From NCBI GenBank assembly GCA_949127975.1, contig CASBRB010000489.1, forward strand, positions 1 to 39,161: 39,161 bases of DNA. The letters are read 5' to 3'. Each line of letters starts with the position of its first letter. The stretch's first letter is position 1. The notes beneath the pieces are model-generated. The model ran no database searches. It was not told where the DNA came from and saw only the letters and a list, made by a program, of their open reading frames with translations. A program made the position numbers and the translations under genes. Source of the DNA: Oscillatoriales cyanobacterium PMM_0019. GTDB lineage: Bacteria > Cyanobacteriota > Cyanobacteriia > Cyanobacteriales > CASBRB01. Shown here in pieces: positions 5,686 to 18,423 of this stretch.

Positions 5686-8600
5686 ATGCAGACAGAACAA
5701 CAACAGCGAATCATGGGCTACTTCATTGATGAAGCAAAAGAACACCTCAATACTATTGAGCAAGGTTTGCTGAATCTGCAAAACACCATTACCGATCGAG
5801 AAATGGTGAATGAAGTCTTTCGCGCCGCCCACTCTATTAAAGGGGGGGCGGCCATGTTGGGAATCAGCAGCATTCAAAAAACCGCCCACCGATTAGAAGA
5901 CTGTTTTAAACTCCTTAAAGAGTGTCCAGTAAAGGTAGACAACAAACTGGAAACTTTATTTCTCAAGGTGTTTGATACTCTTAGTGCCCTGGTGGCAGAA
6001 CTCCCTAAACCGTTTGGTTTAACGGAGGAAATTGCTAAGAAAATAATGGTGGACGTAGAGCCGATTTTTGCAGAACTGAACAATCACGTAAACCAGCTGG
6101 TTCAAAACCCAGGTTCAAGCACCAGCGAACTAAGTGCAGCATTAGAAATAAAACCAACTGATGATAAAAACAATAGAAAAGCGTTAGAACAGACATTTGA
6201 AAAAACAGTTCTGGCGCAGCTACGTGAATTGTTGCAGATTTTTAGGCAACCCGAACAACCCGTGAATCGGCAAGAGCTGCAAAAAATATGTCGCAGCCTG
6301 ATAGCTCTTGGCCAACAGTTTAATTTACCGAAATGGAATAATTTATTAGAAACAGCTTCTTCAGCTTGCGCTAATCCGTCTAACTCATTTCGTACTCTGG
6401 CAAGCATCGTCATCAAGGAAATCAAACAAGCCCAAGAACTGGTATTAGCCGATCGCGAAACCGAAATTCTACCCAGCCGCCAACTGAAAGCCCTCGTGCC
6501 CCCAGAGTCAAGGAAGGCACCCGCTGAAGAGTCATTGACATCGAGTCCTGGTGAGAGAGCAAAGGTGGTTGAGTCTAAAGAAGAATTTAATCCTCTAAAA
6601 TCTGAACCTAAAAACCTGTCGCAACCAGCTATCCCCTTCCCGGCAACACGGATACAAAAAAATTATGACAAAGCAATGAAAAAAGGAGCAGCAGCACGAA
6701 ATGTTAACGAACCAGAGGTGGGAATTCTAGAACTAGACAGTTTGGCAGAACTGTTCTCAGGAGAAACGCCTGAACTGGATGAAAATTGGCAATCAGAAAC
6801 AACCATCAGTAATATTGACGCTAAAGAAATGATGGATTCTATCGAAGAATTAAATTTAGACTTGGATAGCGACTTTGCAGATCTACTGATTGAGTCAGAT
6901 AACCAAAAATCTACAGCGCCAGAAATATCTGAGTTAGACGACTTCATGAATCTGTTTGGTGAAGAAATACAGTCAGAAGCTGAAGTCAGAGTAGCAAAAG
7001 CAGAAGGCTTAAGTGATGAAGATTTTTCAGATTTTTTATGGGAAACAGAACAACCAGAATTACAGGCTAAATCCGCAAAAGAATCAGATGATTTAAGCAG
7101 TTTGTTTGGTGAAGAAATCTGGTTTGCAGATGAATCGTCAAACCCCAGTCTACCAGATAGTGTACCAAAACAGCAGGACGACGAGGAACTATTAAATATT
7201 CTCACAGCCGAGGACGTAAATGAGGCGTTATCGACGGCAGCTAACAGTCCAAATGCTCTAAATGCATTAAATGACGATTCAAGTTTGGATAACTGGTTGA
7301 ATGAATTATCAGAAAATGAATTTGTATTCACACCAGCAGATTTCGATCCAGAGCTAGTGTTAATAGACGAGGATCGGTCAAATAGCAATAATTTATTAGA
7401 AGTTCAAACCCAGGATGTTACTGAAGAATCAGCAGCAAAAACGCCAGTAAATGACTTAAGTTTAGATTTTCTAGAAGAAGAGGGCAATAATTGGGATTTT
7501 TCCAGTTCGTTAGAACAAACAATGGCAGAAGAGGAGTTAGACGAACTGGATGAAATAACTGATAAAGATTCAGAAAGAATAATATCGGGAGAAGAAGAAG
7601 TATTAAGTAAGAATAGCGAAAATAAGGAATTATCAAAAGATAAGGCTCTGGATGTTTTATTTGGAGAAACGCAACTAGATGAAAACTATCAAGAGTCAAG
7701 CGAGAGTTCTGAGTTATCAGAGGATTTGGGAATTGAAACATTTTTAGAGGATCAGTCCCTAGATGACTTATTTGAGGATGAGGAATCTGATGAAGCAGCG
7801 ACTCTTGACGAGACAAAAGACAATCTGTTTGGTGAAGTTGATGAATTCTTAGAACCCTCGTCAAAAACGGTGCTACCAGAGGCGGCAGCAAAGCTGGAAG
7901 CGCTGTTTGATGCTGAAGGCAGCGACGAGCTCGCAAGTGCCTTGGATTTGGATGAAGAGTGGGATATAGATTCAGCGCTGGAATTGGCACCTGCCCAAAC
8001 TGACGAAGCCGCAGAGAAGCTGGATGCTTTGTTTGATGCTGAAGACACCTTAATTGCGGATGCCCTAGAGTCTGATGAAGAGTGGGATATAGCGTCAGCG
8101 CTGGAGTTGGATACAGATGACTTAGAAGCATCTGGAAAATTATCACCCGCTGAGGCCCTAGAGACATCGCAGTACCCGTCAAAAGTTGAAGAAGAATGGG
8201 ATGATTTAAGTGAATTTTTGACAAAAGATGAATTGTTTTTAGAGACGGATGGGGAGGAATCTGCTGACAAAACTCCCCAGTTCGATATCTCCTTAGATGA
8301 GTTTGAGGAGTTAGAAGCTAACTTGAATGAATCAGAAACTCTGGATACATCCGAGCTGCATGCTGCTGACACGGAAGAGTTTGACGAATGGGATGCATTG
8401 TTGGATGAGGATGTAACTCTCAGTGGAAATGATGACAAGTCATCCGAGGAATTTGACGAATTGGATGCATTGTTGGATGAGGATGTAACTGCCAGTGGAA
8501 ATGATGACAAGTCATCCGAAGAGTTTGACGAGTTGGATGCATTGTTGGATGAGGATGTAACTTTCAGTGTAAATGATGACAAGTCAACGGATGAATTTGA

Positions 8601-10821
8601 CGATCTGGATGCCTGGCTAAATGATAATGCCGTTGGGGAATTAACCAACAGTAATGATTTTGATGAACTGGAAAATTTACTAACACAAACCCCACCGATA
8701 AAAGCCGAAAAACAACTCCCCCCTAAGGGTTCGTCTTATGAGAGTTCAGCAACCGCAAATGCTGTTGAGGATGAATTCGACGAACTGGAAAAAATGATGC
8801 AGGATAGTGACAGTAAGATAAGCCCCCCAAGCTTGGGGAAAGCTCCCTTACAGCCAATACGTAGCCGGCTGTCAAAAGCATTTGGCGATCAGACTACTAA
8901 GGTGCCTGTCAAGCACTTGGACAACTTAAGCAATTTAGTAGGGGAACTGGTGGTAAGCCGCAACAGCCTGGAGCAGGATCAGGAACGGATGCGCCAATTT
9001 CTGGATAACTTACTGAGCCAAGTGCAGCAACTTTCGGATGTGGGTGCCAGAATGCAGGATTTATATGAGCGATCGCTCCTGGAAACCTCGATCATTGCTA
9101 GCCGCCAGCATCACCGAAATTTATCTAAGTTGGATAGTTCATCGCTGCAGCTTCAAAACCCTAGTAAATATGACCCGCTAGAAATGGATCAGTTCAGCCC
9201 GATACACTTGCTGTCCCAAGAAATGATCGAGTTGATTGTTCGGGTACGGGAGTCAGCTTCGGATATCGAGTTTTTAGTGGAAGAAACAGACCAAGTCGCC
9301 CGGATGCTGCGACTAATCACAACTCAGCTACAAGAAGGGCTAACGCGATCGCGCATGGCACCGTTTAAGCAGACCGCCGAAAGATTACCTCGTGCCGTGC
9401 GAGATATTTCAATGAAGTTAAACAAGCAGGCGGAGCTAATCGTAGATGGCAAGGACACCTTAATTGACAATGTCATCCTGGAAAAACTCTACGACCCGAT
9501 GACCCACTTGATTAACAACGCCATGACTCACGGCATTGAGGAGCCACAAAAACGCATCGCCGCAGGTAAGTCACCTGTAGGTCGCATTACTATCCAGGCA
9601 TTCCACCAAGGCAACCAGACGGTGATTTCCGTATCCGATGATGGGGCTGGTATTGATATCGAGCGAGTCAAAGCAAAGGCAATTGAAAAAAGGCTCATAT
9701 CGTCACAAGACGCTAAAAGCTTGTCTAAACAGGAGGTATACGAGTTTCTCTTCGATGCTGGCTTCAGCACCCAAGACCAAGCCAATGATTTCGCTGGTCG
9801 TGGTGTAGGCATGAACGTGGTGATCACCAGTTTGAATGAAATTCGGGGGATAATCAGTACCGAATCCACTTTGGGCAAGGGAACCACGTTTACGATTCGG
9901 TTGCCTCTAACCCTGAGTATTGGTAAAGCACTATGCTGCCTCAGCGACAGGGCTAGTATTGCCTTTCCTATGGATGGGGTGGAAGATATGTTCGATGTGC
10001 CCGTTGATGCCATTAAAACCGATACCGACGAGCAGCGGTGTATTGCCTGGCGGGACACGCTCCTACCATTCCAATCTCTATCAGAACTGTTGACGTATAA
10101 TCGTCAACTTAGTCGGGGCAGCGTTTACGGTGGCAAGCGGGAAGACAACATGATATCCATAGTCGTGCTGCGCAGTGCCGGAAACTTTTTGGCAGTCCAG
10201 GTGGATAAAGTGGTAGGCGAACAGGAAATCGTGATCAAGCAACTGCACGGTCCCGTGCCTAAACCAGTGGGGATCGCTGGTGCTACCGTGCTTGGGGATG
10301 GCCGAATTATGCCGATCGCCGACGTTTTAGAGCTGATTGATCTCTCTAGAGGGGTGACGAGCAAACAACATACCGATCTCTGGCTGAGAGATCATTCAGT
10401 ACCTGAAGTCCCAGTTAAGACTGAACCGATGGTGCTGATTGTCGATGACTCGATTACGGTGCGGGAACTTCTCTCTATGACCTTTAATAAGGCAGGTTAC
10501 CGAGTAGAACAAGCCCGTGATGGACAAGAAGCCTGGGATAAACTCCGGTCTGGTTTACCTTGCGATATCGTCTTCTGTGATATTGAAATGCCCAGAATGG
10601 ATGGTCTAGAGCTACTGTCTCGAATTCAAAAAGACGATACCCTCAACCATCTCCCAGTAGCGATGCTTACCTCTCGCGGTGCTGTCCGACACCAGCAAAT
10701 GGCTGCTGAACTAGGGGCTAGTGGTTACTTTACCAAACCTTATCTGGAAGAAGCACTACTCGATGCGGCTCAACGGATGATGAAAGGGGAAGTATTGCTT
10801 CACGCCCCCAGCAACGCATAA
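5686..10821 (+). CDS. pilL: Hybrid CheA histidine kinase with receiver (PilL/HmpE-like)
   Basis: This 1711-residue kinase is the core of the chemotaxis operon. An HPt domain occupies 1-105, with the phosphorylatable His49 in AAHSIKGGA. Residues ~165-270 look like a second HPt-type helical bundle without an obvious His. An acidic, repeat-rich linker spans ~340-1060. Then come a dimerisation helix pair (from ~1073, NLSNLVGELVV), an ATPase domain with N-box HLINNAMTHGIE (about 1275), G1 box DDGAGI (1318-1323) and G2 box GRGVGMN (1371-1377), a CheW-like regulatory domain (~1405-1545), and a C-terminal receiver with phospho-acceptor Asp1632 and TKPY Lys. In the N-box the usual Asp before His-Gly is Thr. 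All catalytic elements appear intact. It lies 127 bp after the receptor gene and is last in the operon. Confidence 0.92.
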   Translation: MQTEQQQRIMGYFIDEAKEHLNTIEQGLLNLQNTITDREMVNEVFRAAHSIKGGAAMLGISSIQKTAHRLEDCFKLLKECPVKVDNKLETLFLKVFDTLSALVAELPKPFGLTEEIAKKIMVDVEPIFAELNNHVNQLVQNPGSSTSELSAALEIKPTDDKNNRKALEQTFEKTVLAQLRELLQIFRQPEQPVNRQELQKICRSLIALGQQFNLPKWNNLLETASSACANPSNSFRTLASIVIKEIKQAQELVLADRETEILPSRQLKALVPPESRKAPAEESLTSSPGERAKVVESKEEFNPLKSEPKNLSQPAIPFPATRIQKNYDKAMKKGAAARNVNEPEVGILELDSLAELFSGETPELDENWQSETTISNIDAKEMMDSIEELNLDLDSDFADLLIESDNQKSTAPEISELDDFMNLFGEEIQSEAEVRVAKAEGLSDEDFSDFLWETEQPELQAKSAKESDDLSSLFGEEIWFADESSNPSLPDSVPKQQDDEELLNILTAEDVNEALSTAANSPNALNALNDDSSLDNWLNELSENEFVFTPADFDPELVLIDEDRSNSNNLLEVQTQDVTEESAAKTPVNDLSLDFLEEEGNNWDFSSSLEQTMAEEELDELDEITDKDSERIISGEEEVLSKNSENKELSKDKALDVLFGETQLDENYQESSESSELSEDLGIETFLEDQSLDDLFEDEESDEAATLDETKDNLFGEVDEFLEPSSKTVLPEAAAKLEALFDAEGSDELASALDLDEEWDIDSALELAPAQTDEAAEKLDALFDAEDTLIADALESDEEWDIASALELDTDDLEASGKLSPAEALETSQYPSKVEEEWDDLSEFLTKDELFLETDGEESADKTPQFDISLDEFEELEANLNESETLDTSELHAADTEEFDEWDALLDEDVTLSGNDDKSSEEFDELDALLDEDVTASGNDDKSSEEFDELDALLDEDVTFSVNDDKSTDEFDDLDAWLNDNAVGELTNSNDFDELENLLTQTPPIKAEKQLPPKGSSYESSATANAVEDEFDELEKMMQDSDSKISPPSLGKAPLQPIRSRLSKAFGDQTTKVPVKHLDNLSNLVGELVVSRNSLEQDQERMRQFLDNLLSQVQQLSDVGARMQDLYERSLLETSIIASRQHHRNLSKLDSSSLQLQNPSKYDPLEMDQFSPIHLLSQEMIELIVRVRESASDIEFLVEETDQVARMLRLITTQLQEGLTRSRMAPFKQTAERLPRAVRDISMKLNKQAELIVDGKDTLIDNVILEKLYDPMTHLINNAMTHGIEEPQKRIAAGKSPVGRITIQAFHQGNQTVISVSDDGAGIDIERVKAKAIEKRLISSQDAKSLSKQEVYEFLFDAGFSTQDQANDFAGRGVGMNVVITSLNEIRGIISTESTLGKGTTFTIRLPLTLSIGKALCCLSDRASIAFPMDGVEDMFDVPVDAIKTDTDEQRCIAWRDTLLPFQSLSELLTYNRQLSRGSVYGGKREDNMISIVVLRSAGNFLAVQVDKVVGEQEIVIKQLHGPVPKPVGIAGATVLGDGRIMPIADVLELIDLSRGVTSKQHTDLWLRDHSVPEVPVKTEPMVLIVDDSITVRELLSMTFNKAGYRVEQARDGQEAWDKLRSGLPCDIVFCDIEMPRMDGLELLSRIQKDDTLNHLPVAMLTSRGAVRHQQMAAELGASGYFTKPYLEEALLDAAQRMMKGEVLLHAPSNA
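7880..8120 (+). repeat. Two imperfect ~42-residue acidic repeats inside the CheA linker
   Basis: The motif KLEALFDAE / KLDALFDAE, followed about 20 residues later by DEEWDI.SALEL, occurs twice in succession. The repeats keep the CheA reading frame and are strongly acidic. They sit in the linker between the phosphotransfer domain and the kinase core. Confidence 0.55.
8374..8589 (+). repeat. Three tandem 72-bp (24-residue) repeats inside the CheA linker
   Basis: Units at 8374-8445, 8446-8517 and 8518-8589, with a degenerate fourth from 8590, each encode E-E-F-D-E-L/W-D-A-L-L-D-E-D-V-T followed by S-G/V-N-D-D-K-S. They are nearly identical at DNA level, which indicates recent tandem duplication within a coding linker. 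Copy number may vary between strains. Confidence 0.85.
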
Positions 10822-11620
10822 ATGAACAGGAGTCAGGAGACAGGAGTCAGGCGGTTTTCTCGTTCCAAGCCTTGGCCTGGGAACGCTGTTGGTGAGGCAG
10901 AGCCGACAGTACTGTAGCACTGCCTCTACATATAGCATTGAGTAGGGTGGGCTCTCCCGTACTTAGGGTGATAAAAAAATCTTATCTATACTTGGAAGCC
11001 CTTTGATAATAAGCGTTGATCGAGAGATTTATTATTTGATTTTTCTTATTTAAATTATTAATGATTGAACGATTGAGTAACGATTAATGAACTTTAAGTA
11101 GTTTAGGTTTTGGTAGTGCTTTAAGTTTACTACGTAGTTTACCCGAATTAAGCTACCTCAGATTTATCAAGTGCTGAAATGACAGACACAATGAAATAGA
11201 TGCAGTACTCACTATAAGTTCAACAACCAAATAAATCCAATGAAAGTTGGTGGTTTTCTGGTAAATCAGTTGAGTCATTAAATTTAGTATTAGACTTAGA
11301 TTTTGTTCTAGATTTAGTGACTTTAGTGACTATAGTTTCTGATGGAATTGGTGTAATTCGCCAACTTATGGTAAAAATCACAGGTTTTTAGATGACGTGC
11401 GTTAGCGTTAGCGGCGGAGCATCGATCTCTTTCGCTCTATCTGGTAACGGTTACCAGATGCGGTTGTACACTACATCATACTACGAGAGTTAAATGCCAT
11501 AAATCAATGCTGATAACATAGCTATGTCTGCCATCATCCCTACATTGTAGTACAGATTTGATGATTTGACGCTTGAGTTTCCGGTAGAATAGTAGCAGTG
11601 GAGTTTATCGAGCGAGCAGA
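10822..11620. other. About 800 bp without a recognisable gene, with several repeats
   Basis: No convincing coding region was found. The stretch holds an aggagtcaggagacaggagt-type tandem repeat (10828-10850); a near-palindromic segment with flanks (10860-10935) resembling the repeat at 25160-25208; a copy of the ggctctcccgtac motif (10950-10975) that recurs at 14426-14451; and a perfect interrupted palindrome (11439-11459). It separates the chemotaxis operon from the two small peptide genes. Confidence 0.5.
11439..11459. promoter_or_regulatory. Interrupted palindrome, candidate operator
   Basis: Perfect 10-bp arms ATCTGGTAAC and GTTACCAGAT flank a single G. The size, symmetry and single-base centre are typical of a dimeric repressor site. 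It lies 161 bp upstream of the first short-peptide gene, so control of that gene is possible but not shown. Confidence 0.4.
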
Positions 11621-11767
11621 ATGAGTAAAACCAAGCAGCAGAAGGATAAGAAACGTCCTCATCTCAATAAGTCAGCGATCGTCGTCAGTGAATCAGAATT
11701 ATTGAGTGATGCTGAACTATCTCAGATCTGTGGTGGGGCTTCGATAGGTGGAAAAAATATCTGTTAA
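11621..11767 (+). CDS. Short Gly-Gly leader peptide, copy 1 (48 aa)
   Basis: A 48-residue ORF with a basic N-terminus (MSKTKQQKDKKRP) and a leader-like block ESELLSDAELSQICGG, followed by only nine residues, ASIGGKNIC. The L-S-D-x-E-L-x-x-(I/V)-x-G-G pattern matches the double-glycine leaders of cyanobacterial bacteriocin-type and other secreted peptides that peptidase-containing ABC transporters cleave. If cleaved after Gly-Gly, the product is a nonapeptide; a second GG inside the tail is an alternative site. No transporter, peptidase or modifying enzyme is encoded in the window. The tail is far shorter than usual bacteriocin cores, so a signal peptide or a truncated precursor are both possible. 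The family call rests on the motif alone. Confidence 0.6.
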   Translation: MSKTKQQKDKKRPHLNKSAIVVSESELLSDAELSQICGGASIGGKNIC

Positions 11768-11799
11768 TGAACTGAACTGTGAATTCTATAGGAGTAAAG

Positions 11800-11967
11800 A
11801 TGAGCAAGAAGAAACCGATCGCTATTCACCATCAGCAAGTATCGTCAGGGAAATCTGAATTATTGAGTGATTCAGAAGTGTCGGCAGCGAAAACTGAATT
11901 ATTGAGTGATGCCGAACTATCTCAGATCTGTGGTGGGGCTTTGATGGGTGGAAAGAATATCTTGTAA
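11800..11967 (+). CDS. Short Gly-Gly leader peptide, copy 2 (55 aa)
   Basis: A 55-residue ORF closely related to copy 1, starting 32 bp downstream of it. The ATG at 11800 is chosen over an in-frame GTG at 11779 because AGGAG lies about 6 nt before it. The leader block TELLSDAELSQICGG is nearly identical to copy 1 and is preceded by a second, partial copy (SELLSDSEVS), an internal duplication. The tail is ALMGGKNIL, nine residues like copy 1. DNA after both stop codons is also similar (taatgaactgaac), so the gene arose by tandem duplication including flanking sequence. Function is unknown; a secreted peptide is inferred. Confidence 0.65.
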   Translation: MSKKKPIAIHHQQVSSGKSELLSDSEVSAAKTELLSDAELSQICGGALMGGKNIL

Positions 11968-12063
11968 TGAACTGAACGGTATAGTTTACTTGGGTGATTT
12001 GAACTGCATCACGATTAATGATGGATTGCTTGAACTGTTGTAGAGATTAATCAGGTTAAAGGG

Positions 12064-12090
12064 TTGACAATTAGCTGAATTCCTTATAAT
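12064..12090 (+). promoter_or_regulatory. Promoter-like sequence
   Basis: A perfect TTGACA (12064-12069) and a perfect TATAAT (12085-12090) are separated by 15 bp, shorter than the 17-bp optimum. No + strand gene follows, and the next gene is on the other strand. It could drive a small or antisense RNA, or be chance in AT-rich DNA. Confidence 0.3.
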
Positions 12091-12118
12091 TTCAGATATT
12101 GACATCAATGAAAGCTAC

Positions 12119-12349
12119 TCAATTGTAATCCCCTACCGCTACATAAAACTGAGGATTAAGGAAAGTTAATGTGGCGATAATTCCCACCACAAACCACATT
12201 AACTTATCGAAATACAATTGACTAGGGATTTGACGATTGTTTCGATGTCTTCTATTGACGACATGACTTGTTGGATTACTCTTATTACGTTGATTTGGAG
12301 TAGTCAATTCCCAATCTAATTTCTTCATCCAATCTAATTCATTCCCCAC
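12119..12349 (-). CDS. Small hypothetical membrane protein
   Basis: A 76-residue ORF with a GTG start that overlaps the end of the upstream HTH-like gene by 16 nt, so the two are probably translationally coupled. The N-terminal half is polar and basic, with two repeats of LDW. The C-terminal third has one hydrophobic stretch (about 50-72, LMWFVVGIIATLTFL) that could span the membrane. I do not recognise the family. It is the last gene of a minus-strand cluster; its partner is split by an insertion element, so expression may now be lost. Confidence 0.5.
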   Translation of the reverse strand: MGNELDWMKKLDWELTTPNQRNKSNPTSHVVNRRHRNNRQIPSQLYFDKLMWFVVGIIATLTFLNPQFYVAVGDYN

Positions 12350-12891
12350 CTTTTCAGCACTAGATTCACCTCCTCCTCTGAAGTTAGTGGTTTTGGCTTT
12401 GGGAACTTTGTACCCAAACTAGCCTTAAATGAAGATATCTGACGCTGTAACTGAGGCGGCAGTAAATGTGGATTCTTCTTTAGCATTTGTGCCATGTCAT
12501 CACTCAGCAGTTCTTCGGCTGCCTTTACTGCCGCAATATCTGCTGCTCTATTCATGTCAACTTCTTCATATCCCGCCACCTTCAATTCTATGTCCGAAAT
12601 AGGCGTTGCTTGTCGATCAATCTCAATTGAATCTGAGTCTTGCTCAACTATCCCCTTATCAGTATTAGCAGTAGCAACCAACGATGCAGTTGATGAATAT
12701 GAAGTAGATGAAGTAGATGAAGTAGATGAAGTTGATGAAGTTTGTTCAACAATTGATTCATTATCCTCATCTCTCATAGCAGTGGTTTTCCCTGGTACTT
12801 TAAAACCTGACGCTTTTTTATACTTCGTCAAATGCTCGTCGAAAGCATCCAACGTAGCTAACTGAGATTTGCTCACATAGAACTTTTGTCC
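12334..12891 (-). pseudogene. 3' fragment of an HTH-like gene split by an IS630-type element
   Basis: The fragment reads GQKFYVSKSQLATLDAFDEHL, then a Lys/Ser-rich linker, a Ser-Thr repeat tract (from a 9-bp DNA repeat) and a helical acidic C-terminus. A GTG at 12876 could start a 180-residue remnant, but the open frame runs on to the insertion boundary. Joining 12891 to 14787 with one copy of the TA target gives an uninterrupted frame (EINPYRLGQKFY across the junction), and the joined segment from GTG 14934 is exactly 236 codons. The pattern of basic helix, EINPYR turn, then F-Y-V-S-x-x-Q-L resembles helix-turn-helix or excisionase-type domains; that identity is inferred. This is the 3' part of a gene broken by insertion. 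Confidence 0.7.
12700..12741. repeat. 9-bp tandem repeat inside the split gene
   Basis: About four and a half copies of gaagtagat-type units (the last one varies, gaagttgat). On the minus strand they encode a Ser-Thr-Ser-Thr linker. Because the unit is a multiple of 3, copy changes keep the frame. Confidence 0.7.
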
Positions 12892-12893
12892 TA

Positions 12894-12970
12894 CTCCCTT
12901 CCCGCCAGAAGATTATGTACTACAGGCGGACGACGGCGCGGGCGAAGTAATCGCGCCGTCGTCCGCCGGC
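12894..12970. repeat. Left terminal inverted repeat of the IS630-type element, with hairpin
   Basis: It matches the inverse of 14708-14784 with five mismatches. It contains a perfect 16-bp stem (ggcggacgacggcgcg at 12925-12940 and cgcgccgtcgtccgcc at 12952-12967) with an 11-nt loop. Where it differs from the right copy, the stem changes are partly compensatory. Confidence 0.88.
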
Positions 12971-13031
12971 AAGGGAACCCCTTAAGTATTATTACTTACA
13001 ACGTTCGACGCTCCCGGTCGGTCATCTGCTA

Positions 13032-13218
13032 GAGCGCCGGTCCAGTAGAACTATTTAACAAAATATACAAGATGTGTATTTTGTGTAAATCGAACTTTTT
13101 GGCACTTCGCTTGAATGCGATCGCTCTTAACCAGACCTGAAAATTCAGCCAAAAATGGCGTTTTCGTCTGATACACATAATTGTGTTTTTGTCAACCACT
13201 CTTACTGGACCGGCGCTC
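13032..13218. mobile_element. Nested 187-bp MITE-like element
   Basis: Perfect inverted repeats of gagcgccggtccagta lie at 13032-13047 and 13203-13218. They are flanked by TA on both sides (13030-13031 and 13219-13220), giving 19-bp perfect inverted repeats when the flanks are counted. No gene lies inside. The TA duplication is typical of miniature elements mobilised by IS630/mariner-type transposases. The end sequence differs from that of the surrounding element, so a different transposase probably moved it. It sits upstream of the transposase gene. Confidence 0.75.
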
Positions 13219-13291
13219 TAGTAATTATTACTTGACTTTTTAGATCTTTTTAAGGGATAATTTGAGCAGATAAATCAATGGCTTACAAATA

Positions 13292-14392
13292 ATGAACAAC
13301 CGGACTGACAGATTAAAACAAATTCCTCCAGATTGGGAATCGTGGCCAAACTTATACTATCAATATCAACAGAGTTATATTCGTCAAAAATTATTAGCAA
13401 TTAAATATTTGTGGTTGGGTTATAGTCGTCAACAAGTTACCCAGATGGTGTCATGTAGCTATCTCACTTTAACCCAGTGGCTAGATGATTTTTTATCGGG
13501 TGGTTTGTCAAAATTAACCCAACCAATCACACACCTAGTCCCATCTCGGCTCAATCAAGAACAACAAATAGAATTGAAGAGAATGCTTCTAGAAGACTCC
13601 CCTAAAGATTATGGTATAGATAAATACATTTGGACAGCAAAAATAATTATTACAGTTCTTAAAGAAAAATGGGATGTATCACTTAAAGATACTAGGATTT
13701 ATGAAATTCTGGATGAGCTTAACTTATCTCACCAAAAAGCTCATCGGGACTATGCTAATGCTGACTCATATCGTCAAAAACAGTTTGTAGATATTCTTAA
13801 AAAAAAAATCTCATGCCAGCAGATAGGTGAAAAAATTATCTTTTTTGATGAATTTGCAGTTTACGACCGTCCTAGTTTATTTTATACTTGGGCAGAAAAG
13901 AATAGTAGACCAGAGATTGCCAGTAATGAAAGGCGAAGAAATAAAGTCAACGGCTTTTTCTGTGTAGATGCGTTAACGGGTGAAGAGTATCTTAAATTAA
14001 GCGATCGGGCTAAAACTGAAAATATTGTTAGTTATTTTGCTGAACTATGTAGTGATGTAAGCCAGCAAGGGTTTCAGAAATTAACCGTATTTCTAGATAA
14101 TAACAGTACTCATAAACAAAAAATGCAACGCCTTTTACAACTAGAATTAGTCAAAATGAAAATCCAGTCTTTTCAGGTAGAGTTTATTTATACACCACCT
14201 TATTCGACTAATTATAACTTAGTTGAGTATTTAATACATCAGCTTAGATTACAACTGCTACACCATCAACCTGTAAATACAACTATTGAAGAAGTCCGCT
14301 ATAGGATTGAGCAATATTTACAAGCTAACCAGCTTCAAACTCCACAGCAAATTAAAAATATTATTAATCATATTTTAGCTCTAGCTAAGTAA
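13292..14392 (+). CDS. IS630-family transposase
   Basis: A 366-residue DDE transposase, close to the usual IS630 length. An N-terminal helix-turn-helix region (about 30-75, around YSRQQVTQMV) should bind the terminal repeats. The catalytic triad is visible: Asp in IIFFDEFAVYD, Asp in TVFLDNNSTHK, and Glu in YNLVEYL after the family-typical TPPYST turn (usually SPELNPIE). The frame has no stop or shift, so the enzyme may be active. It is AT-rich compared with neighbouring host genes. The surrounding TA-flanked inverted repeats agree with this family. Confidence 0.9.
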   Translation: MNNRTDRLKQIPPDWESWPNLYYQYQQSYIRQKLLAIKYLWLGYSRQQVTQMVSCSYLTLTQWLDDFLSGGLSKLTQPITHLVPSRLNQEQQIELKRMLLEDSPKDYGIDKYIWTAKIIITVLKEKWDVSLKDTRIYEILDELNLSHQKAHRDYANADSYRQKQFVDILKKKISCQQIGEKIIFFDEFAVYDRPSLFYTWAEKNSRPEIASNERRRNKVNGFFCVDALTGEEYLKLSDRAKTENIVSYFAELCSDVSQQGFQKLTVFLDNNSTHKQKMQRLLQLELVKMKIQSFQVEFIYTPPYSTNYNLVEYLIHQLRLQLLHHQPVNTTIEEVRYRIEQYLQANQLQTPQQIKNIINHILALAK

Positions 14393-14700
14393 TTTTATTA
14401 CATAGCAGTTGTTAAAAAACAGGACGGCTCTCCCGTACCTAGGCTGATAAATTTTACTAATCACTTGTCTGAAAGCCTTGAACAGAGGGAAATATAAGGT
14501 TCTCTTTCGTGGTAGCACCTAGATATGCTAAAGGAGGCCTAAGTCCTAAAAAAATCCACTACAGCAGTAAATTTAACCTGCAATAATTAGCAATTTTTTC
14601 CTATGAATCCATCCCAAGCATAAAACGGCATTAAACTTTTTCTGATACTGGATTTTAACTAATAGAAAAAGATTTTTGTTTAAATCCGGTTATCGATGGT
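14393..14700. other. Non-coding 3' part of the IS element
   Basis: About 300 bp between the transposase stop and the right terminal repeat. No ORF stands out. It contains ggctctcccgtacctaggct (14426-14445), a near copy of a motif outside the element at 10950-10970. In both places an aagcc-containing segment follows within about 30 bp. The nature of the shared segment is unknown. Confidence 0.5.
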
Positions 14701-14707
14701 TGCGCCT

Positions 14708-14784
14708 GCCGGCTGACGACGGCACGATTGCTTCGCCCGCGCCGTCGTCAGCCTGTAGTACATAATCTTCTAGCGGGAAGGGAG
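14708..14784. repeat. Right terminal inverted repeat of the IS630-type element, with hairpin
   Basis: It is the inverse of 12894-12970 with five differences. The internal hairpin (14711-14726 with 14738-14753) keeps 15 of 16 pairs. A G-C pair of the left copy is replaced by T-A here, a double change that preserves pairing. Confidence 0.88.
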
Positions 14785-14786
14785 TA

Positions 14787-14934
14787 ATCGATATGGGTTA
14801 ATCTCTAAATAACTAAATCTATCCCTCCTCGTTCTAGTCGCAATATCATACTTCGCATTCAGTTCGCTTACCAGCATGTAATGTATCTCTGGATCTAATT
14901 GATTCCCATTAATTGGCTCATGCCAATTATCCAC
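14787..14934 (-). pseudogene. 5' fragment of the split HTH-like gene
   Basis: From a possible GTG start at 14934 the frame reads VDNWHEPINGNQLDPEI, then MLVSELNAKYDIATRTRRDR and SYLEINPYR, and then hits the insertion boundary. The segment with basic residues and short helices looks like the first half of a DNA-binding domain that continues in 12334-12891. An ATG at 14877 is an alternative start. The frame is also continuous upstream with the acidic ORF at 14947-15207 except for one TAA. The original gene may therefore have been longer and carry a nonsense mutation, or these may be two coupled genes. Confidence 0.55.
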
Positions 14935-14946
14935 TATTTCATTCAG

Positions 14947-15207
14947 TTATACATCCTCTAGTGCCACTTCCTTTGGATATATTAGTTCATCATTATTAAC
15001 TACTTTCTCTTTCATGATTGATTCTCCTGATTCATTGACATCTGCTGCTGTTACTACTACTGCTGCTGCTTCTTCAATCCTCAAGTTATCTGAATTTACT
15101 GATTCTAAATCATACCAATCTGACGAAGCTCCATAATTGCCTGACTCAGAATCAGACCAATTATCATCGAAATCTTCCCCATCTATTCCCTTCGACACGT
15201 TCATCAC
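14947..15207 (-). CDS. Acidic hypothetical protein (86 aa)
   Basis: An 86-residue ORF rich in Asp, Glu, Ser and Asn (DGEDFDDNWSDSESGNYG at the start), with an Ala-Val patch in the middle encoded by a ctg/act-type microsatellite. I recognise no domain. It lies directly upstream of, and in the same frame as, the split HTH-like gene, separated by a single TAA. It may be a separate coupled gene, or the N-terminal part of that gene cut off by a nonsense mutation. An AGGAG-like sequence precedes the start (caaggagaaagtg). Confidence 0.45.
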   Translation of the reverse strand: MMNVSKGIDGEDFDDNWSDSESGNYGASSDWYDLESVNSDNLRIEEAAAVVVTAADVNESGESIMKEKVVNNDELIYPKEVALEDV

Positions 15208-15299
15208 TTTCTCCTTGTTTAATCGCTATGAGTTTACTTCCATTTTCTACCGCCGACTTTATCCCTACCACCGCCTCTATACCATTTCTTCACTGCCGA

Positions 15300-15635
15300 C
15301 TTTATTCCTACAACCGCCTCTATGACACTTTCACCACCACCCCCAAAGCCCCCAATCAATGCCTCTATGCCACTTTCACCACCACTCCCAAAGCCCTCAT
15401 TAGATTTCTACGATCTTTTTTCGTATACGAAATTCCTCATCGAATTTATCTCCCTTCCCAATTCCTCCCTCAATCAATGCCCCCTTTATCTCTTCGGAGC
15501 CCTTCTCTACTGCCTACTTCCCCCACAATCACTGCCTCTATGCCACTTTCACCCCTGCCTCCTTTGCCCCCAATCAATGCCTCTATGCCACTTTTACCCC
15601 TGCCTCCTTTGCCCCCAATCAATGCCCCTTTCCTA
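15300..15635. repeat. Cluster of imperfect repeats (tgcctctatgccactttcac-type)
   Basis: On the + strand the unit caatcaatgcctctatgcca, followed by ctttcacc and a C-rich tail, recurs at roughly 15309, 15353, 15530 and 15574, with degenerate forms upstream. On the minus strand the unit encodes GESGIEALIGG-type sequence. Copies are directly tandem, or separated by a diverged segment, and spacing is irregular, so this is not a CRISPR array. The + strand open frames here are by-products of the repeats. Confidence 0.65.
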
Positions 15636-15697
15636 AAAGACACATCATTATATTTGACATAGCCATGACTGTCAAGTATCTCTATTCCTTTTCTCAT
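15470..15697 (-). CDS. Gly-rich repeat protein, hypothetical (75 aa)
   Basis: A 75-residue ORF opening MRKGIEILDSHGYVKY and then carrying about two copies of a 14-residue unit, ALIGGKGGRGESGIE, plus a degenerate third. The same DNA repeat continues downstream of the stop codon, but frames are broken there, so a longer repeat protein may have decayed. Function is unknown. It is the most upstream ORF of the minus-strand cluster that ends at 12119. Confidence 0.4.
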   Translation of the reverse strand: MRKGIEILDSHGYVKYNDVSFRKGALIGGKGGRGKSGIEALIGGKGGRGESGIEAVIVGEVGSREGLRRDKGGID

Positions 15698-15774
15698 AAA
15701 TCAATAAATAAATGAAGCCGATGATTATATCAGTGTTCATTGATTTGGCATCTATCTAGAGTCGGATGTACTCT

Positions 15775-15899
15775 ATCGTTTGTCGGCTAACAGTTCGGCG
15801 ATCTTCTGAACCCATTGCAGGCTGGAACCCTTATGTCATCGACCCCGGTCATTTTCCAGTCGTGCGATCGTACAAGGACCAATCTGATTCCTTTGTTTG
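15775..15899 (-). pseudogene. Remnant of an XRE-type helix-turn-helix regulator
   Basis: Reading the minus strand, KQRNQIGPCTIARLENDRG, a stop, then LQWVQKIAELLADKR resembles the recognition helix and following helices of XRE/Cro-C1-type regulators (T-I-A-R-L-E-N-x-R-G). There is no start, and an internal stop interrupts the frame, so only a fragment remains. Such regulators often sit in toxin-antitoxin or restriction modules; no partner is visible. Confidence 0.4.
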
Positions 15900-15936
15900 T
15901 GATGGCAGAAGCTTATGCACATTTTGACTGATTTGT

Positions 15937-16200
15937 CAATGCGTAAGTCCTAATTCTGTGCATTGGACATTAGATGTCACATTCCACGAAGATCAGTCCC
16001 GGATTCGTTCTCTACACAGCGCACAAAATTTTGCTTTACTACGTCGCATTGCTCTCAATGCCTTAGAACGAGAAACTTCTTTTCGCCGTAGTATTCGCCA
16101 AAAGATACGGCGAGCCGCTACTCACTTTCAGTATATGCTTTCTGTCTTGGCTGCGGCTATCTCAAACTCGAACTCCATACTATGCTCCTCTTGTCAATAG
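15937..16200 (+). pseudogene. C-terminal remnant of an ISAs1-family transposase
   Basis: The frame reads HWTLDVTFHEDQSRIR, SAQNFALLRRIALNALERE and then RSIRQKIRRA, matching the conserved end of ISAs1 (H-repeat type) transposases, in which W-x-L-D-V-x-F-x-E-D precedes Q-N-x-A-x-x-R-x-x-A-L-N. An in-frame stop lies just upstream (15925-15927) and the N-terminal two thirds, including the first catalytic Asp residues, is absent. It is a dead fragment between the XRE remnant and the helicase gene. Confidence 0.65.
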
Positions 16201-16332
16201 GGTTTGAGACGCGCTTACCCTGGTCAGCGGAGCCTCTCGCACTACATTAAGCGATCGTAGACCAACCCTGACCAAATCTGAACTAAAATGGCATAAAGAG
16301 TTCAAACAAGGTCAAATTTCACTTTTCAGGAT

Positions 16333-18423
16333 ATGACAACAGAACTTAAAAATAAAGCGTTATCACTTCTCCGTCAAGCTCTCAATGACCCAATAGCTGA
16401 ATTTCGAGATGAACAATGGGAAGCGATCGTTGCCTTAATCTTCGATCGCTCTCGTCTACTTGTCGTGCAACGCACTGGCTGGGGAAAAAGTTTAGTCTAT
16501 TTTTTAGCAACTCGCTTGCTACGAGAACAAGGTGCTGGTTCTACTCTCCTCATTTCACCCCTACTGGCTCTTATGCGAAACCAAATTGCCGCAGCCGAAC
16601 GAATTGGCGTTAGAGCCGCAACGATTAACTCCGCTAATATAGATGAATGGCAACTCGTACAAACGCAATTGCTAGCGGGAAAAGTCGATATATTGCTGAT
16701 TTCTCCAGAACGATTGGCAAATGAAAAATTTAGGGAAACCATCCTGTTACCAATATCTCAGCGCATTGGGTTATTTGTCGTTGATGAAGCCCACTGTATT
16801 TCTGATTGGGGACATGATTTTCGCCCTGACTATCGGCGGATTGTTCGGATTTTGCAAGCACTCCCTCCCAACATCCCAGCCCTTGCTACAACCGCCACAG
16901 CTAACAACCGAGTCGTTAACGATATCATTGCTCAACTGGGGTCAAATCTGCACATATCCAGAGGCTCACTGACACGAAAAAGCTTGCAACTGCAAAATAT
17001 TAATCTTCCCAGCCCAGCAACACGAATGGCATGGTTAGCCCAACACCTTCCTAACCTACCTGGAAGTGGTATTATTTACACACTAACTGTCAGAGATGCT
17101 GAACGTGTTGCTGATTGGTTAAGGAATCATAGGCTTGATGCAGAAGCTTATCACAGCGAACTGGATAATCAAGAGCGTGAGGCATTAGAAAACAGACTTA
17201 TCAATAATGAAATCAAAGCTTTAGTAGCAACTACAGCTTTAGGAATGGGTTTTGATAAACCCGACTTAGGATTTGTTATTCATTACCAACGTCCAGGCTC
17301 TGTTGTTCATTATTATCAGCAAGTAGGACGAGCAGGTAGAGCCGTAGAACAAGCGTATGGAATTCTTATGAGCGGTAATGAAGACGATGACATTACCGAT
17401 TATTTCATTAGAACAGCTTTTCCTCCAGAAGCTCATATTCAGCAGGTCTTAAATGTTTTAGAGCGGGCAGACGACGGTTTTTCTGTTACTGCCTTGGAGC
17501 AAGAACTTAATCTTTCTAGAGGGCAAATCGATAAAGTTTTGAAACTGTTATTGCTGGAGTCTCCCGCACCCGTTACTCAGCAAGACTCAAAGTGGTATGC
17601 TACGGCAGTTTCCTATCAACCCAATACTGCCAAAATCGAGCAGTTGACGCAAATTCGTCACCAGGAACAAGCTCAGATGCGGGAATATATGAAAAGTCAA
17701 CAATGCCTAATGACTTTTCTAGCGAGAGAATTAGACGATCCCAACCCAACAATTTGTGGTAAATGTGCAGTGTGCTTAGGTAGACCTTTATTGCCAGAAA
17801 CCTACTCAATGGAACTGGTAAATCAAGCAATCCAGTACTTACGCCGCAGCGAGCAAATCATAGAAACTCGCAAAAAATGGCCATCAAAAGCCCTTCCAAG
17901 TTATGGCTTCTCTGGGAATATTCGAGACAATTTAAGAGCTGAACTAGGACGGGCGTTGTCTTTGTGGGGTGATGCAGGGTGGGGAGAATTAGTGAAGCGG
18001 GGTAAATATCGAGATGGTTATTTTGATGATGAGCTAGCGCAGGGTACTTTTGAAATGATTCAACGTTGGCAACCTCAGCCTTTCCCTACTTGGGTGACTT
18101 GTGTTCCCTCCTTAAGTCGTCCAGATATTGTACCGAATTTTGCTAAACGGCTAGCTGATAAATTAAATTTACCCTTTATGCCAGTTGTTCGTAAAGTTCG
18201 CCAAGCTCAGCCACAGAAAACCATGAACAACAGTTATCAGCAAGCTCATAATCTGAATGGTGCGTTTGCGGTTGACTCTTGGCAGGGAATCAAAGGTTCA
18301 GTATTATTAGTTGATGATATGGTAGATTCACGTTGGACTTTCACTGTAATTGCCGCGCTTTTGCGTCAGGCTGGCAGCGGGTTGGTTTTCCCTCTGGCAT
18401 TGGCACTGAATTATTTAGATTGA
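16333..18423 (+). CDS. RecQ-type ATP-dependent DNA helicase with C-terminal phosphoribosyltransferase-like domain
   Basis: A 696-residue protein. The superfamily 2 core has a Walker A-like QRTGWGKS (Lys52; Trp where many RecQ have Gly), the DEAH box VVDEAHCISDWGHDFRPDY (151-154), ATTATAN, TTALGMGFDKPD, and motif VI QQVGRAGRA. A zinc-binding cluster follows, with Cys458, Cys475, Cys478 and Cys481. Instead of an HRDC domain, the last ~130 residues look like a ComF-type phosphoribosyltransferase, with VLLVDDMVDSRWT (657-669) at the PRPP-loop position. It should unwind DNA; whether the C-terminal domain is catalytic is unknown. The DprA-like gene starts 14 bp downstream, so the two form an operon. 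Such gene pairs occur in accessory regions, and a role in DNA uptake, repair or defence is inferred. Confidence 0.85.
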   Translation: MTTELKNKALSLLRQALNDPIAEFRDEQWEAIVALIFDRSRLLVVQRTGWGKSLVYFLATRLLREQGAGSTLLISPLLALMRNQIAAAERIGVRAATINSANIDEWQLVQTQLLAGKVDILLISPERLANEKFRETILLPISQRIGLFVVDEAHCISDWGHDFRPDYRRIVRILQALPPNIPALATTATANNRVVNDIIAQLGSNLHISRGSLTRKSLQLQNINLPSPATRMAWLAQHLPNLPGSGIIYTLTVRDAERVADWLRNHRLDAEAYHSELDNQEREALENRLINNEIKALVATTALGMGFDKPDLGFVIHYQRPGSVVHYYQQVGRAGRAVEQAYGILMSGNEDDDITDYFIRTAFPPEAHIQQVLNVLERADDGFSVTALEQELNLSRGQIDKVLKLLLLESPAPVTQQDSKWYATAVSYQPNTAKIEQLTQIRHQEQAQMREYMKSQQCLMTFLARELDDPNPTICGKCAVCLGRPLLPETYSMELVNQAIQYLRRSEQIIETRKKWPSKALPSYGFSGNIRDNLRAELGRALSLWGDAGWGELVKRGKYRDGYFDDELAQGTFEMIQRWQPQPFPTWVTCVPSLSRPDIVPNFAKRLADKLNLPFMPVVRKVRQAQPQKTMNNSYQQAHNLNGAFAVDSWQGIKGSVLLVDDMVDSRWTFTVIAALLRQAGSGLVFPLALALNYLD

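Follow-up and report, generated by a model that had tools for sequence, protein, structure and literature searches.

Tandem double-glycine precursor genes with predicted nonapeptide cores, unlinked to an exporter gene, in a cyanobacterial genome

The PatS/HetN-type signal is the pentapeptide RGSGR, and the mature peptides of the streptococcal double-glycine signals are longer than those predicted here. In cyanobacterial 'bacteriocin' clusters, precursors down to 28 aa have been described (Wang et al. 2011, PMC3140520), and some of these may already have very short cores. In Synechococcus elongatus, mass spectrometry supports a cut behind GG or GA in a system with a C39 exporter (PMC4997328), and precursors encoded far from their own export genes are known (PMC2887384). 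The locus described below probably encodes two lineage-specific double-glycine precursors that arose by recent tandem duplication, have no linked export genes, and are processed to nonapeptides and exported by machinery encoded elsewhere.

According to the ORF list and the sequence of the window (the whole stretch of DNA analysed, 39,161 nucleotides), two adjacent genes are located on the + strand with 32 nt between them, precursor gene 1 at 11621-11767 (48 aa; translation MSKTKQQKDKKRPHLNKSAIVVSESELLSDAELSQICGG followed by ASIGGKNIC) and precursor gene 2 at 11800-11967 (55 aa; translation MSKKKPIAIHHQQVSSGKSELLSDSEVSAAKTELLSDAELSQICGG followed by ALMGGKNIL). Each gene starts with ATG and stops at TAA followed by TGA, and the C-terminal end of each ORF consists of the full double-glycine leader LLSDAELSQICGG and nine residues, directly followed by the double stop TAATGA; two adjacent genes with a common leader and these two tails, as described in an earlier sequence-only reading, were thus confirmed. 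All key residues of the double-glycine consensus are present in the leader (L-12, S-11, E-8, L-7, I-4, G-2, and G-1), which as read from the sequence has the hydrophobic residues at -12, -7, and -4, the acidic residue at -8, and the Gly-Gly at -2/-1 of a C39/PCAT substrate. From this consensus, cleavage is predicted after CGG in gene 1 and at the corresponding site in gene 2, which would give core 1 (ASIGGKNIC, 11738-11764, + strand, calculated [M+H]+ 862.4451) and core 2 (ALMGGKNIL, 11938-11964, + strand, calculated [M+H]+ 916.5285). The core has a GG of its own, but cleavage there was rejected, as position -7 would be Gly and position -4 would not fit in copy 1. ORFs of the form Met, 15-70 aa, leader, and a tail of 3-30 aa were also counted in sequence simulated from the third-order base statistics of the window; none was obtained in 6 Mb, against two in the window, and therefore the pair is not a product of chance.

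A Shine-Dalgarno-like GGAG (11791-11794, + strand) was read from the sequence 5 nt ahead of the ATG of gene 2, and no clear Shine-Dalgarno sequence was found for gene 1. Upstream of gene 1 there is a weak sigma-70-like promoter match (TTGACG-16-AATAGT, 11566-11593, + strand); six such matches were obtained in the region versus 2.9 ± 1.8 in shuffles, a number that alone is no evidence for a promoter. An RNA element search gave no Rfam match at 10800-16400.

Exporter, adaptor, receptor, immunity, and modification genes were searched for in the 39-kb window, and none was found; the linked peptidase-transporter for which the sequence-only reading had recommended a search is accordingly absent from the window, and the exporters are encoded elsewhere in the genome. 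Four C39-type genes were detected there (C300, C418, C8, and C213). C300 carries NHLM ABC1 (1149 bits, cut-off 853), in which the C39 motif VECGAAAL is intact, together with NHLM ABC2 (981 bits, cut-off 709), and C418 encodes a second exporter, a long C39/ABC protein with the intact motif SDCGATCL, so that C39 exporters with the catalytic Cys are present in the same genome as the pair. The products of the genes on C8 and C213 are without the catalytic Cys and fit the type I HlyB model, and NHLM HlyD (381.6 bits, cut-off 156) is separated from ABC1, being on C262. On C300, the vicinity of the ABC1/ABC2 pair showed no double-glycine precursor. Since exporter parts and precursors are all scattered in this genome, a precursor pair without a linked exporter is what one would expect and no anomaly, and since the draft assembly consists of 512 contigs, some linkage may be hidden. 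Two other precursors of the same genome were observed: an unlinked double-glycine precursor of 67 aa with an 18-aa core (AAVPCYQSKYAGYQRKAG) at a contig end (L079, G000:C64, 13-216, + strand), and a Nif11-type precursor with a Cys-containing 35-aa core (GDNDDKPKNTHKNCGVGGTCYNHTCCVTGDQAYTL) near position 10387 (L134, G000:C229, + strand).

Expression, cleavage, export, and function of the pair, as we infer them, would begin with the translation of genes 1 and 2 from one transcript. A peptidase-containing ABC exporter whose gene lies elsewhere would then recognise the leader LLSDAELSQICGG through its C39 peptidase domain; the NHLM ABC1/ABC2 pair on C300 with the NHLM HlyD adaptor on C262 is the best candidate for this exporter and the long C39/ABC protein on C418 the second. 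The cut after Gly-Gly would free ASIGGKNIC and ALMGGKNIL, which would then be exported, most likely unmodified, and serve as small signal-like peptides outside the cell; an unmodified exported signal-like oligopeptide is our leading guess for the function.

Precursors of this kind were sought elsewhere by a leader-pattern scan of 245 same-order genomes and by a separate scan of 28 NHLM ABC1 loci. The 28 loci yielded 15 double-glycine precursors (core lengths 7, 9, 9, 12, 14, 14, 15, 16, 17, 18, 19, 21, 34, 40, and 47), and reversed sequence gave none. The three shortest cores (7, 9, and 9) are all encoded at L102 (G083:C6) beside NHLM ABC2 and ABC1, namely IIIGAPK and RDLVTWYQD in tandem genes with an ATGA overlap (691-840 and 837-992, + strand) and AHGGNWWLK in a third gene (up to 5885, + strand). 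At L069 (G490:C241, 385-9551), NHLM HlyD (377 bits) and ABC1/ABC2 genes are preceded by five double-glycine precursors, the cores of which have 13, 11, 12, 10, and 8 residues, and the 8-residue core RMIIIIIF belongs to a precursor with a Nif11-type leader above the curated cut-off. At L068, which has a C39 exporter as well as YcaO, TfuA-related, and Nif11-type radical-SAM genes nearby, cores of 12, 12, 20, and 15 residues were found. As L069 and L068 were selected by leader, they show that short cores exist and not how frequent they are. The precursors of L102, L069, and L068 have the same architecture as the window pair, with about 30 polar residues, a double-glycine leader, and a very short tail, and the notion that nonapeptide tails set the pair apart from other double-glycine peptides is therefore not supported. 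This kind of precursor with a very short core is already present in other cyanobacteria next to a matching exporter, and the window pair is a further example. Short-tail matches in G531, G543, and G441 were discarded for want of an in-frame start codon. Between NHLM ABC2 and ABC1 of L102, a 307-aa ORF (7683-8606, - strand) was observed that contains six in-frame leader-like repeats (ELETLTIAELDAIAGA), each followed by a GL..NHNQTVVKF-like stretch; its sequence suggests a polyprotein precursor that would be cleaved at six Gly-Ala sites. A radical-SAM-like ORF was noted by eye at 955-1824 of L069.

No homologue of the peptide pair was detected in 100 same-order genomes of 62 genera, in which the two weak matches both lie inside ORFs over 1200 aa, nor in 84,980 species' genomes, IMG/VR, or plasmids, in which the remaining matches lie inside unrelated frames; in this respect the sequence-only reading, which had suggested that the pair could be undescribed, was upheld. 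The nearest comparison genomes are at the order level, the set searched containing no close relative, and as far as can be seen the pair appears to be lineage-specific. With no homologue anywhere searched, there is no evolutionary proof of constraint on the pair. Neither precursor gave a Pfam or NCBIfam match above cut-off. The NHLP leader family (TIGR03793) matched neither protein and nothing in the genome, and the Nif11-like leader family, N11P (TIGR03798), matched neither protein above its curated cut-off. Among the class II bacteriocin models (Pfam PF04369, NCBIfam TIGR03949, NF038167, and kin), none exceeded its cut-off; the best score was 16.8 bits versus a cut-off of 23.1 and covered the leader part only, and the core has nine residues, not tens. 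RGSGR is absent from both ORFs.

The 3′ halves of both genes are one direct repeat of 90 nt (copy A, 11691-11780, and copy B, 11891-11980, both + strand, 90% identical), which takes in leader and core, the double stop TAATGA, and a 3′ flank of 13 nt. Within gene 2, a direct repeat of 39 nt (85% identical, + strand) was found, the first unit of which (11837-11875) is without GG and the second (11876-11914) part of the working leader; the internal leader duplication noticed earlier in copy 2 is therefore real, and the earlier view that the locus evolves by repeat expansion, here nested, is supported. The common leader ELLSDAELSQICGG is identical in the two copies but for a single silent change, and among the nine core codons three have replacements and one a silent change. 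When a slightly longer leader stretch was compared with the core, 3/45 versus 5/27 nt were changed (P = 0.14, not significant), a pattern that hints at a retained leader beside a drifting core. Apart from the A and the GGKNI, the cores have no residue in common; where core 1 has Ser and Cys, core 2 has Leu at both sites, so that the two share no Ser/Thr/Cys position. Because the similarity is that of a tandem duplicate running past the stop, the two copies count as one datum and GGKNI is not independent evidence of selection, so the earlier assertion that this shared motif proves constraint on the tail does not hold. The loss of a longer core by frameshift was also rejected, as TAATGA is common to both copies and no downstream frame resembles a core.

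The main rival explanation, which we regard as rather doubtful, is that the pair is a decaying relic, the remnant of a double-glycine precursor cluster of which the other genes were lost or moved and the tails were truncated or are no longer selected. Decay is plausible in this gene-poor stretch next to an IS630 transposase (13292-14392), and the relic is consistent with the lack of linked genes and of homologues and with core codon changes that are mostly replacements. However, both frames are intact and the common leader is kept but for its silent change, the stop and flank lie inside the repeat with no downstream frame continuing a recognisable core, and tails of 7-9 residues are present at exporter loci elsewhere, all of which argues against a relic. 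Counting against the reading of nonapeptides exported in trans are the lack of exporter, adaptor, receptor, and modification genes in the window, the lack of homologues, the gene-poor setting beside the transposase, the non-significant difference between leader and core, and the poor Shine-Dalgarno region of gene 1. The neighbouring ORF (12334-12876, - strand, 180 aa) belongs to no family and has no homologue in the 100 same-order genomes, and was rejected as a partner gene. It contains a Ser/Thr-repeat stretch and the string EELLSDDMAQML, leader-like by eye only. On the other side of the pair, a 1711-aa hybrid kinase, CheA-like by eye, was noted at 5686-10821 (+ strand), with a long acidic, partly repeated linker of FDELDALLDEDVT units.

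That the cores are RiPP precursors, modified before export by an enzyme encoded elsewhere such as a YcaO or radical-SAM protein, is a poorer explanation and improbable in our judgement. It would draw on the short-core precursors of L068 beside YcaO, TfuA-related, and Nif11-type radical-SAM genes, and on Ser and Cys in core 1; these residues are nevertheless Leu in core 2, no modification gene was found in the window, and inspection by eye of the ORFs around the short-core genes at L102 revealed none either. Since no modification enzyme is linked and the cores have no Ser/Thr/Cys position in common, the peptides are most likely unmodified. A reading in which GGKNI was selected independently because it binds a receptor, the pair belonging to an established signalling family, might draw on the identity of GGKNI in both copies but is very improbable and largely refuted. 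The copies arose by tandem duplication; the leader+GGxxxGGKN pattern occurred in only 8 stretches of the 84,980 species' genomes, and in none of these does a short core follow a full leader; and GGxxxGGKNI was found in 386 genomes of the phylum only in unrelated frames; the search for the leader and this tail in other cyanobacteria, which had been proposed as a check, thus gave only unrelated frames.

If these nonapeptides are in fact produced, few products of the double-glycine export route would be shorter, and the exact masses predicted above make the idea directly testable. The survey suggests that cores of 7-12 residues recur at cyanobacterial NHLM exporters and are easily missed in annotation. 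A broader proposal, which we consider unlikely, would be that cyanobacteria of this order make oligopeptide signals of 7-10 residues by the double-glycine/PCAT route, the window pair being a split, trans-exported case with two co-encoded variants of one signal; no formal description of this size class for the route was found in the literature consulted.

In comparison with known systems, the window pair resembles the precursors of PMC3140520 in its leader (E-8, I/L-7, I/V-4, G-2, G/A-1) and in consisting of small, often unannotated, multi-copy ORFs; those precursors were found next to C39/HlyD by design, whereas the window pair has no such genes linked to it and fits neither of the leader models NHLP and N11P. 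With the precursors of L102, L069, and L068 it shares, beyond the polar residues and leader, short cores (7-20 aa there) and tandem copies, but there is no evident similarity outside the leader motif, and those loci are close to NHLM ABC1/ABC2 or HlyD. EbfG1-4 of Synechococcus elongatus are likewise several double-glycine precursors together, are exported and cut by a C39 exporter, and have mature parts with no homology to proteins of other cyanobacteria; unlike the predicted nonapeptides, these mature parts are 6-7 kDa, about seven times larger, and the exporter gene is adjacent in number (Synpcc7942_1133/1134) (PMC4997328). Streptococcal CSP and BIP are similar in leader type and export route, and some streptococcal peptides use the exporter of another locus; their receptor is encoded in the same locus, in contrast to the window pair, to which none is linked (PMC7595303).
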